DNA from: Candidatus Latescibacterota bacterium
GTDB lineage: Bacteria > JAAXHH01
DNA length: 45,547 bases
NCBI GenBank assembly: GCA_022823465.1
Contig: JAJEHX010000047.1
Span: 1 to 45,547 of the forward strand
Reading direction: 5' to 3'
The notes beneath the pieces were generated by a model. That model was not told the DNA's origin and made no database searches. It saw nothing but the letters and a program-made list of their open reading frames with translations. Made by a program: the position numbers and the translations under genes. This document shows, piece by piece, positions 24,537 through 28,230 of the stretch. Every line of letters starts with the position of its first letter. Within the stretch, counting starts at the first letter, position 1.

Positions 24537-24731
24537 TCAGCCATCCTTGGAGGCGGATGTACCCGAGGTACTCTGATTCTCTTCGGCGGGCTCTTTCTTC
24601 TGCGCTTTCTTGAACTCTGTGATGCCCTGACCCAGGCCCTTGGCCAGCTCAGGAAGCTTTTTGGCGCCAAAGAGGACCATGACGATCACGAGAATGATAA
24701 TCAGTTCTGTCGTGCCGAAACTACCAAGCAT
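24537..24731 (-). CDS. tatA: Sec-independent translocase subunit TatA
   Basis: A 64-residue TatA-type subunit that builds the twin-arginine translocation pore. It has a short periplasmic start ([10 protein letters not shown]), one membrane helix [12 protein letters not shown], the FGxxKLP hinge (FGAKKLPEL) and an amphipathic helix [15 protein letters not shown], then a polar Glu/Ser-rich tail. The ATG at 24731 is preceded by AGGAGGTGAT, a 10-base full complement to the 16S rRNA end, so expression should be high. A promoter lies just upstream. It stands alone; tatB and tatC must be elsewhere. Confidence 0.93.
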
Positions 24732-24753
24732 TCGAATCACCTCCTCGATCTTG

Positions 24754-24782
24754 AGGATACGGTTATCGCTCCATCTTGTCAA
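24754..24782 (-). promoter_or_regulatory. Promoter of tatA
   Basis: On the minus strand TTGACA (24782-24777), 17-base spacer and TATCCT (24759-24754). Transcription would start near 24747, leaving a leader of about 16 bases filled by the Shine-Dalgarno. Confidence 0.7.
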
Positions 24783-24951
24783 GCGGCAATGTACGGTTAT
24801 CCCGTCACGGCATATGGCATGAACGGTACCGGGCCGGTCTTGCGGGGGAGCGGTCTAGAATCCTTGCCATTGCATACAATGAACGTTTATTTAGTGCTTA
24901 GCAACGCATACGATGACTTTGAAGACCATTCATTCGTTCAGGGAGGACATC

Positions 24952-25191
24952 GTGATCGTCCGTATTGAATATTGCGCCGATTGAGGCTACGAACAGGACG
25001 CCGCCGGGTTGGCGGTGAAGCTACTGGAGTACTACAAACACGACATCGGACAGTTGCAGCTCGTGCCCTCCGGTGGGGGCAGGTTCGAGGTAACTGTCGA
25101 TGATGCGCAGGTCTTTTCCAAGCTGGAAACGGACCGGTTTCCCGAGTACGACGAGATCAAGGGCGCCATCGAGGCGCTGATTACCGGTTGA
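24952..25191 (+). CDS. SelW/Rdx-family selenoprotein (in-frame TGA as selenocysteine)
   Basis: A 79-residue thioredoxin-like protein if TGA at 24982-24984 is read as selenocysteine. The GTG start at 24952 has GGGAGG 5 bases upstream. The N-terminus IVRIEYCAD-U-GYEQDAAGLA gives the CxxU redox motif at residues 8-11, exactly where Rdx proteins (SelW, SelT, SelH) carry it after the first beta strand. The rest, LVPSGGGRFEVTVDDAQVFS, KLETDRFPEYDEIKGAIEAL, matches the family's G.FEV.v......SK...grFP motif. Without readthrough only a 10-codon peptide results. A SECIS-like hairpin follows the TGA. The role is probably thiol-linked redox chemistry. It is monocistronic, upstream of a STAS gene. Confidence 0.85.
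24982..25017 (+). promoter_or_regulatory. Candidate bacterial SECIS element
   Basis: After UGA (24982-24984) the RNA can fold CGCCGCC (24999-25005) against GGCGGUG (25011-25017), seven pairs including one G-U, with the loop GGGUU at nucleotides 22-26 after the UGA. Bacterial SECIS hairpins lie within the coding region just after the UGA and need a G-U-containing apical loop about 16-37 bases away, which fits. GGCU right after the UGA could pair with AGCU at 25019-25022 as a lower stem. Confidence 0.65.
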
Positions 25192-25285: not shown

Positions 25286-25627
25286 ATGAATATCGACGTT
25301 TCGCTGGAAAATGAGATCGCCGTACTGCGCATTGAGGGCAGGCTGTGGGAAGAGGGGGACAGCATCGAACTGGATCGCATGATCGATGAGGCCCTCGCCC
25401 GCGGCTGCACGGGCTTCGTTACCGATCTGACGGGCGTGCCCATCATGAACAGCTCGGGGCTGGGTTCGCTGATCGCGGCCATGAAGAAGATCCGGTCCAG
25501 TTCCGGAGAAATGGCGCTCACGGGCGTGAACGACCGCCTGGACCACTTGTTCCGGATCACCCGGCTTTACACCGTCTTCAAAACCTACGACGATGTTGAC
25601 GCCGCCGTGGAAAACCTGCACGCCTGA
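25286..25627 (+). CDS. STAS-domain anti-sigma factor antagonist
   Basis: A 113-residue single STAS domain (SpoIIAA/RsbV type), which frees sigma factors or other partners by binding anti-sigma kinases in its unphosphorylated form. MNIDVSLENEIAVLRIEGRL opens the fold, TGFVTDLTGVPIMNSSGLGS carries the phosphorylated serine (IMNSSGLG), and the last helix is FKTYDDVDAAVENL. The ATG at 25286 has AGAGGTGG upstream; the frame is open a little further. No serine kinase or phosphatase gene is nearby. Its last codons and TGA are repeated three more times up to the next start codon. Confidence 0.88.
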   Translation: MNIDVSLENEIAVLRIEGRLWEEGDSIELDRMIDEALARGCTGFVTDLTGVPIMNSSGLGSLIAAMKKIRSSSGEMALTGVNDRLDHLFRITRLYTVFKTYDDVDAAVENLHA

Positions 25628-25701: not shown

Positions 25702-28230
25702 ATGCAACCGGTGCACGAGGCCCCCATGCCGGACTACCAGCCGCTGGATCTCACGTCAAGCTACAACACGAACCGGCAGGTCTACGATTCCATAGCGGAT
25801 CCGCCGCTCGGATCGCAGACTTTTCACGGCCTGCCGTTTCAGATCGGCGACGGGACCGTGGATTCCGACTGTTTCATCGGCTTCGGATCACAGTTGGGAT
25901 GCTCGACCGAGTCTGTCACGATTCCGGTCGGCCGCTCCGCGGTCAACGTGGTCTTCGCCCACGCGGTAATCCGGTCGGAGATCATGGCCGGCGGTCCGAT
26001 CGCCCTGCCCGTGGCCGCGTACCGGTTCATCTGGGACGACGGACGGGACGAGTCCGTGACGATACGCGAGCGGTTCGAGATCGGCTACATGCCGCTGCCC
26101 TGGGGACAGTATCCCTTCCTGTGCGTACCGGACGAGAAGCCGACTCCCCACAGCCGGTCCGGCGGCGACTGGAACGACGCCGGCCGCAGGCAGACGGAAG
26201 CCGAGCAGGGCTGGCCCCGGGGTTACTACCTCTGGGCGTGGCGCAACTCCCGGCCCGATCGGGAAATACGTTCGATCGAGATCACGCCGCAGGGCCCGCC
26301 CTTCGTCGTGGCCGCCGTCACCCTTGGCCACGTTGACGAAGATCCGATCTGCAGATGGGCCGCCCGGGACGTTCAGATCGAGCTCAAAAACCCGGAAGAC
26401 GCGGAAAAACCGTTCGACCTGGAAGTGGAGGTGGACCGGGGGTACGCGACGTACGCCTATCCGCTGCCCGGGCAGGTCGACGAGACCTTCATGAACGACG
26501 CCCACCGGGGATGGGGGCAGGCCGACAACACGCGATCGAGTCCCGCCCACGCGGGGGTGGCCGGCACGCCGTCGGCCACGGTGACCGTGAAACAGGACGG
26601 CGAGGCCATCGGGTCGGCGAACTGGGGCGAGCTGGAAGCGAAAGAGTCCGTGGACACGCCCCGGGTGCGGTTCGAGGTCATCGATACGGGGCGGAACTGG
26701 GTTCACACCACGGTCTTGGACGACGTTACGGGCCAGCCCGTACCATGCCGCGTCCACTTCCGCTCGGCCAGGGGCGTGCCCTACGCGCCCCACGGACACC
26801 ACGCCCACGTCAATTCGAACCTGGAGACGTGGCACGTGGACGTGGGCGGCGACGTCCGGCTGGGTCAGATGTCCTACGCCTATATCGACGGCAAGTGCCA
26901 GGGCTGGCTGCCCCGGGGCGAGGTGCACGTGGACGTGGCCCGGGGATTCGAGTACGAGCCGATACGTCAACTCGTCACCATAGAGCCCGGCCAGCGCGAG
27001 CTCACCCTGCGGCTCAAGCGGTGGGCAGACCTGAACGCGGAAAGGTACTTCAGCGGGGACACCCACGTGCATTTCCTCTCCACCCAGGGCGCCCAGCTCG
27101 AGGCCCAGGGAGAAGACCTGAACGTGGTCAACCTCCTGCTTTCCCAGTGGGGCGGTCTCTTCACGAACACCGAAGAGTTCACCGGGTCGGCGAACGTGGC
27201 GCCAGACGGGGATACGATCGTGTACGCCACGCAGGAGAACCGGCAGCACATCCTGGGCCACCTGTCGCTCCTCGGCCTCAAGGAACCGGTCATGCCCTGG
27301 TGTTCCGACGGCCCCAGCGAGGCCGAACTGGGAGGCAACCTGGAAACGACCCTGTCCTACTGGGCCGACGCATGCCACGCGCAGGGCGGGACGGTCGTGA
27401 TCCCCCATATCCCCAACCCCAACTGCGAACCGGCGGCACTGATCGCCACGGACCGGGCCGACGCCGTGGAGATGCTGGTCCACAGCGAGTACAACCACCT
27501 GGAGTACTACCGGTACCTGAACTGCGGGTACAAACTGCCGCTGGCGGGCGGGACGGACAAGATGTCCAGCGACGTGCCCGTGGGGATCTACCGGACCTAC
27601 GCCTACATCCCGCCGGACGAGCCCTTTACCTACGACAACTGGTGCAAGGCGCTGCGCGGCGGCAATACCTTCCTGAGCGCGGGGCCCATCATCCGGTTCT
27701 CGGTGAACGGCCAGCCCATCGGCGATACGGTGAATCTACCCGGGAACGGCGGGACGGTCGAGGTCGAGGCGTCGGCGGATTCGACGCTGCCCATCCATAC
27801 GCTGGAAATCGTGCAGCAGGGCAAGGTAGTCGCCTCGGCCGAGGACGCCCGGGGCGCCCGCAACCTTTCGCTAAAGACCTCACTCAAGATCGAGGGCCAC
27901 ACCTGGCTGGCGGCGCGGTGCGCCGGGCCCAATTACACCAGCATACCGCATCACGACGGCTGGCGCCGGGGCATCATGGCCCACACTTCGCCGGTATACG
28001 TGGCCTGCGGCGGTCCCTACTGGCTGTTCGACCTGGAAAACGCCCAGTACATGCTGAGCCTGATCGAGGGCGGCCTGTCTTACATCAAGCGCCGGAGCTG
28101 GCAACATAAGCCGGGAACGACCACCCACCATCACGGCGGCGATGACCACGAGGCCTTCCTCGAGGCGCCCTACCTGCAGGCTCGTGAAGCCATCCACCGG
28201 CGCATGCACGAACTGAACATCCCGCACTGA
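25702..28230 (+). CDS. CehA/McbA-family (PHP-type) metallohydrolase
   Basis: An 842-residue protein without a signal peptide. The first half is beta-rich and includes a carboxypeptidase-regulatory-like stretch (VLDDVTGQPVPCRVHFRS). The second half has the PHP metal signature YFSGDTHVHFLST, then GGTVVIPHIPNPN, DAVEMLVHSEYNH and LPLAGGTDKMSSDVPVG, as in the CehA/McbA carbaryl-hydrolase family. The end is histidine-rich (PGTTTHHHGGDDHEAF), perhaps a metal store. The ATG at 25702 has no Shine-Dalgarno because the STAS gene-end repeats reach it; an ATG at 25726 is an alternative. Substrate unknown. It is followed by a BCCT transporter, which may import it. Confidence 0.8.
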   Translation: MQPVHEAPMPDYQPLDLTSSYNTNRQVYDSIADPPLGSQTFHGLPFQIGDGTVDSDCFIGFGSQLGCSTESVTIPVGRSAVNVVFAHAVIRSEIMAGGPIALPVAAYRFIWDDGRDESVTIRERFEIGYMPLPWGQYPFLCVPDEKPTPHSRSGGDWNDAGRRQTEAEQGWPRGYYLWAWRNSRPDREIRSIEITPQGPPFVVAAVTLGHVDEDPICRWAARDVQIELKNPEDAEKPFDLEVEVDRGYATYAYPLPGQVDETFMNDAHRGWGQADNTRSSPAHAGVAGTPSATVTVKQDGEAIGSANWGELEAKESVDTPRVRFEVIDTGRNWVHTTVLDDVTGQPVPCRVHFRSARGVPYAPHGHHAHVNSNLETWHVDVGGDVRLGQMSYAYIDGKCQGWLPRGEVHVDVARGFEYEPIRQLVTIEPGQRELTLRLKRWADLNAERYFSGDTHVHFLSTQGAQLEAQGEDLNVVNLLLSQWGGLFTNTEEFTGSANVAPDGDTIVYATQENRQHILGHLSLLGLKEPVMPWCSDGPSEAELGGNLETTLSYWADACHAQGGTVVIPHIPNPNCEPAALIATDRADAVEMLVHSEYNHLEYYRYLNCGYKLPLAGGTDKMSSDVPVGIYRTYAYIPPDEPFTYDNWCKALRGGNTFLSAGPIIRFSVNGQPIGDTVNLPGNGGTVEVEASADSTLPIHTLEIVQQGKVVASAEDARGARNLSLKTSLKIEGHTWLAARCAGPNYTSIPHHDGWRRGIMAHTSPVYVACGGPYWLFDLENAQYMLSLIEGGLSYIKRRSWQHKPGTTTHHHGGDDHEAFLEAPYLQAREAIHRRMHELNIPH

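Follow-up and report, generated by a model that had tools for sequence, protein, structure and literature searches.

A SelW-like UGA gene and a complementary pair of SelA paralogs in a lineage labelled Candidatus Latescibacterota

An in-frame TGA lies eleven codons into a small frame on a 45,547-nucleotide stretch of DNA from a Candidatus Latescibacterota bacterium (the window, i.e. the whole stretch analysed; contig 10 of genome G000, 3.86 Mb, 98% complete). Does this codon end a short peptide, or is it read as selenocysteine (Sec) within a redox protein? A preliminary description of the locus had favoured the latter and thereby implied that the host makes selenocysteine. The features of the locus are as follows.

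24952..25191, + strand: selW-like gene, 79 codons plus stop codon TGA (25189-25191), translated with TGA as U
24941..24946, + strand: Shine-Dalgarno sequence GGGAGG, 5 nt upstream of the GTG at 24952, by direct reading
24973..24984, + strand: redox motif C8-A-D-U11, with Cys8 (TGC, 24973-24975) and the Sec codon TGA (24982-24984, codon 11)
24999..25017, + strand: SECIS-like hairpin C-GCCGCC / loop GGGUU / GGCGGU-G, starting 14 nt past the UGA, from the minimum free energy (MFE) fold
24537..24782, - strand: tatA (Pfam TatA_B_E), divergent neighbour, at the same position in all congeners
25286..25627, + strand: gene for a STAS-domain protein (Pfam), downstream neighbour, behind selW in all congeners and in the sister-genus genome G012

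Read conventionally, the locus had been said to give a short peptide and an orphan 60-codon frame, and indeed the table 11 list of open reading frames holds a single entry here, of 60 amino acids with a TTG start (25009-25191). Standard gene calling is thus able to lose the active site of genes of this kind. When the TGA is translated as U, no other stop occurs before the TGA at 25189-25191, and the coding part without the stop (24952-25188) specifies 79 residues. The range originally given, which takes in the true stop codon, the undisturbed frame and the ribosome-binding site ahead of the GTG all proved correct. The same is true of the proposed 79-residue Rdx protein with Cys8-x-x-Sec11. The product scores 78.9 bits against Pfam Rdx (cut-off 22.6, E=3e-22) and 67.8 bits against the NCBIfam model CXXU_selWTH (cut-off 34.2), and it stays under the cut-off of the narrower model NF041051 (78.1 vs 88). 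It also aligns with solved Rdx proteins (2fa8, E=6e-11), which places the CxxU near the N terminus, behind the first strand. The predicted protein would have a thioredoxin-like fold with this C-x-x-U redox pair and, judging from the motif, probably acts in thiol/selenol redox chemistry. Neither a further Rdx gene nor a Cys paralog of Rdx was found in the same genome.

The order of the neighbours around selW is kept in all congeners. Adjoining the selW and STAS genes, positions 25702-28230 (+ strand) encode an 842-aa protein without a Pfam match that is about 90% identical across the genus.

An alignment with homologues had been suggested as a check on residue 11. The genome search returned 17 Sec homologues, the window gene included, all of which carry TGA at the same codon. 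The other 16 come from 11 further congeners, from G012 and from four distant genomes (G040, G054, G021 and G046), and each of them has exactly one in-frame TGA. The GenBank relatives are metagenome-assembled genomes (MAGs) labelled Ca. Latescibacterota or Gemmatimonadetes, the label varying by depositor. A Cys codon (TGC) at residue 11 was seen in one homologue, that of a Dehalococcoidia MAG (L051). Within the genus the Shine-Dalgarno sequence reads AGGAGGA or nearly so. Ahead of the UGA (codons 1-10) pN/pS among the 12 congeners amounts to 0.05, and behind it (codons 12-77) to 0.18, i.e. purifying selection acts on either side of the UGA. Since the first ten codons are as constrained as the remainder, they appear to belong to a single gene that is read through.

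The second suggested check, a genome-wide search for selA, selB, selD and the gene for tRNA-Sec, found all of them, so that the implied capacity of the host to make selenocysteine is encoded. The search also revealed a second SelA-like gene and two further genes with an in-frame UGA.

C31:6360-8288: selB, 350 bits (above cut-off), SelB winged helix 3 present
C31:8451-8544: tRNA-Sec, anticodon UCA, 70.6 bits, called tRNA-SeC by ARAGORN, 162 nt behind selB
C16 (L001:1435-2673), - strand: selA, catalytic copy, 491.8 bits
C46 (L024:1396-3741), - strand: oxidoreductase-SelD fusion, 781 aa, 254 bits, with CxxC
C51:55277-56632 (L002:1489-2892), - strand: second SelA-like gene, full length, 182 bits
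C27:30671-30838 (L123/L129): AhpD-like (CMD) gene, UGA in NECEYU-VRHH (CxxU), second selenoprotein gene
C37:2407-2808 (L128), - strand: Prx/Trx-like (AhpC-TSA) gene, UGA in GYWUPLC (UxxC), third selenoprotein gene

The fusion protein lies above the cut-offs of both TIGR03169 and TIGR00476; it also matches TIGR04369 ('fusion_not_SelD'), below the cut-off. In the AhpD-like and Prx/Trx-like genes the TGA presumably sits where these families have their catalytic Cys. Our survey of UGA genes covered three families, and the genome accordingly has at least three selenoprotein genes; the idea that the SelW-like protein is its only one was dropped. AhpD-like CxxU and Trx/Prx-like UxxC proteins are known selenoprotein types (PMC2398784). 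Of the four distant genomes with the UGA gene, G021, G040 and G054 also have selA, and no selA match was obtained in the fourth, G046 (86% complete).

In the sister genus, G012 keeps a UGA-type selW (L039) together with only a fragment of selA at a contig edge. Neither tRNA-Sec nor an intact selA was found in this fragmented assembly, a pattern that reflects either an assembly gap or a recent loss of the Sec trait. Together with the UGA gene of G046, it is an observation against the reading of the codon as Sec.

Two other accounts of the locus have to be weighed. One of them traces the TGA to an error in sequencing or to a nonsense mutation and sees in the gene a Cys-type Rdx gene or a pseudogene. 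The mere 60-aa remnant in table 11 and the existence of a Cys form in L051 would agree with this account. It is, however, at odds with the identical TGA in each of 12 separate assemblies from the genus, in one genome of a second genus and in four distant genomes, with the purifying selection on both sides of the codon and with the complete Sec machinery. As the GTG, Cys8 and the TGA are all kept in 12/12 genomes of the genus and in the second-genus genome, chance or a read error is excluded, and pseudogene and error alike were rejected on account of the homologues; we give this account next to no weight. The other account accepts Sec but takes the hairpin for a by-product of the A-A-G-L-A-V peptide and high GC, the SECIS lying elsewhere or having another form. 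The hairpin at 24999-25017 fits the bacterial SECIS pattern, in which a stem-loop whose small loop contains a G immediately follows the UGA (PMC1088965). A search of the window with the pattern GCCGCCRGNYTGGCGG gave one match, namely this hairpin. MFE folds place a hairpin at about the same position, with a G in the small apical loop, in all 17 Sec homologues, including those with differing codons; in L043, for example, the stem GCUGCA-AGUU-UGCAGC is shifted by one base and fully paired over six pairs. On the other hand, covariation in the stem among the homologues did not exceed that in shuffled alignments and was not significant, with coding constraint as a confounder, the trend towards synonymous conservation was weak (p about 0.10), and the folding energy is not unusual for the composition (z -1.2). 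Because the peptide A-A-G-L-A is conserved in its own right, it is plausible, and not proven, that the hairpin is the SECIS of the selW-like gene. The recurrence of a G-loop hairpin at nearly the same distance in every Sec homologue, as well as a SelB with a SECIS-binding winged helix, nevertheless makes the by-product account improbable.

We are thus highly confident that 24952-25188 is a translated SelW-like (Rdx) gene whose UGA would be decoded as selenocysteine by SelB-GTP-Sec-tRNA-Sec, with the hairpin positioning the SelB complex at the codon. From the machinery, the conserved UGA, the selection pattern and the hairpin we infer real Sec insertion at residue 11. The gene thereby points to selenocysteine use by an uncultured lineage. 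In kind it is ordinary; it is the SelA pair that is worth following.

To characterize this pair, we collected both SelA types from all congeners and from G013, G014 and G015 (L001, L002, L058-L064 and L066-L085). The catalytic type occurs in 14 genomes (G000-G011, G013 and G015) and the other type, which we call lysine-less, in these 14 and in G014. The two thus co-occur in 14 genomes from three families. Each type is monophyletic across the three families with 100% ultrafast bootstrap support, which indicates that the pair is old and inherited. All 14 catalytic-type copies retain K285, R86, R119, D284, R312 and R315 (A. aeolicus SelA numbering), among which K285 is the PLP lysine and Arg86, Arg312 and Arg315 are the selenophosphate residues. 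The profile match of the copy on C16 begins only at position 64, from which we conclude that the N-terminal domain is absent. Throughout the 14 genomes the match begins at position 58-72, and just 15-54 in-frame codons precede the core. The lysine-less protein shows the complementary pattern. The C51 copy spans positions 2-453 of TIGR00474 and aligns to residues 9-452 of E. coli SelA, and the N-terminal domain, which all 15 copies of this type have, carries LARLPSV or a similar motif; the short Pfam model PF12390 was reached, among the lysine-less copies tried, by that of G014 only. K285 is lost in 15/15 copies (Gly in 14, Glu in G015); R86 is likewise missing throughout, and only the G014 copy retains R312. 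Both types evolve under purifying selection, which is weaker in the lysine-less one (omega about 0.42 vs 0.19; 0.51 for its N-terminal domain). Foldseek on the lysine-less model returned SelA as the nearest fold. The single-chain models of the two proteins reached pLDDT values of 65 and 58, too weak for arguments about an interface.

Of the 14 genomes that combine the two types, 12 yielded a gene for tRNA-Sec; G009 (87% complete) and G015 (85%) did not. G014 has tRNA-Sec and the lysine-less SelA, and in this 83% complete assembly no catalytic-type SelA was found. In G012 just the end of a SelA gene is left at the contig edge, in the gene context of the lysine-less type. In G000 (L053, C51:45000-64000) the lysine-less gene is flanked on one side by a glycosyltransferase-like gene (TIGR04282) and on the other by a class II aldolase gene, which is kept as a neighbour in G012 and G014. 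A supposed selA/selD cluster on C51 was discarded: the 'selD-like' neighbour scores better as HypE/ThiL and falls below the selD cut-off, and was therefore not counted as selenium-related. In a survey of 387 sampled genomes, 181 of which gave a selA match at E<=1e-30, no other complementary pair was found among the matches listed, which were itemized down to about 490 bits and entered below that score as counts. Apparent split or doubled genes were set aside because the pieces stop at contig ends (G341, G343, G197 and G311), overlap in a manner resembling frameshifts (G089), or are single genes (G180 and G291).

How could the two proteins share the work? In A. aeolicus SelA the N-terminal domain binds tRNA-Sec, and the domain is reported to be present in every Sec user that was examined (PMC4607533). 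Since the sole catalytic SelA of a Sec user here lacks the domain and a lysine-less SelA has it, a mixed complex would be the simplest solution. The lysine-less protein would recognize tRNA-Sec through its N-terminal domain and present it to the catalytic copy, which would perform the chemistry of Sec-tRNA formation. On the strength of the sequences we consider it an even bet that the two are subunits of a heteromeric SelA, perhaps a mixed ring. The location of the lysine-less gene away from the sel genes, its faster evolution, the occurrence of G014 with tRNA-Sec but without the catalytic type, and the SelA gene end in G012, where tRNA-Sec was not found, count against a mixed complex. Alternatively, the catalytic SelA suffices for making Sec, and its lysine-less paralog has a different function, as a regulator, or persists as a less constrained relic; to this alternative we assign somewhat less than an even chance. 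The higher omega of the paralog and its place beside the class II aldolase and the HypE-like gene would be in line with such a role. It is less readily reconciled with a tRNA-Sec domain retained over three families while the PLP lysine was lost in all 15 copies, with the co-occurrence of the two proteins in 14 genomes, or with the tRNA-Sec binding and reported generality of this domain (PMC4607533). The N-terminal-domain rule for Sec users fails in the catalytic SelA of this lineage, apparently because the lysine-less paralog carries the domain. If the heteromeric reading is true, tRNA recognition would be naturally separated from catalysis in Sec synthesis.

The components differ in how far they depart from known systems. 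SelW-like proteins have ranked since 2005 as the most frequent selenoprotein family of marine bacteria (PMC1088965, PMC2398784), with 48 genes in the Sargasso Sea set (PMC1088965) and 427 in the GOS data (PMC2398784), so the window gene is not surprising in kind. It shares with them the family (PF10262/TIGR02174), the CxxU with Sec second and a putative bacterial-type SECIS in the coding region; the sole difference is the host, labelled Ca. Latescibacterota/Gemmatimonadetes. We found no literature report of a SelW-like gene in this lineage, which would represent a new host group for the family. The oxidoreductase-SelD protein shows no difference from the Ndh-SelD fusions with CxxC known from GOS data (PMC2398784), having the same oxidoreductase-before-SelD order and a CxxC in the SelD part. 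Regarding the SelA pair, no report of a heteromeric or two-gene SelA was found in the openly searchable literature. Both proteins are homologues of the SelA of Aquifex aeolicus and E. coli (PDB 3W1H, 8UZW). Whereas the known enzyme is a homodecamer, the tRNA domain and the catalytic residues reside here on separate paralogs. The SelA of H. pylori has undergone the same loss of the N-terminal domain with the catalytic residues kept, but H. pylori lacks the rest of the sel genes and is not a Sec user (PMC4607533); the lineage studied here, in contrast, has tRNA-Sec, SelB, SelD, UGA genes and a second SelA with the N-terminal domain. The closest functional analogy is the bacterial split PylRS (PylSn + PylSc; PMC6267555), in which tRNA-binding and catalytic domains are likewise separate and serve a recoded stop codon. 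The proteins are unrelated, and PylSn exists as a domain on its own, whereas in the present case a lysine-less full-length paralog carries the tRNA-binding domain as a fusion.
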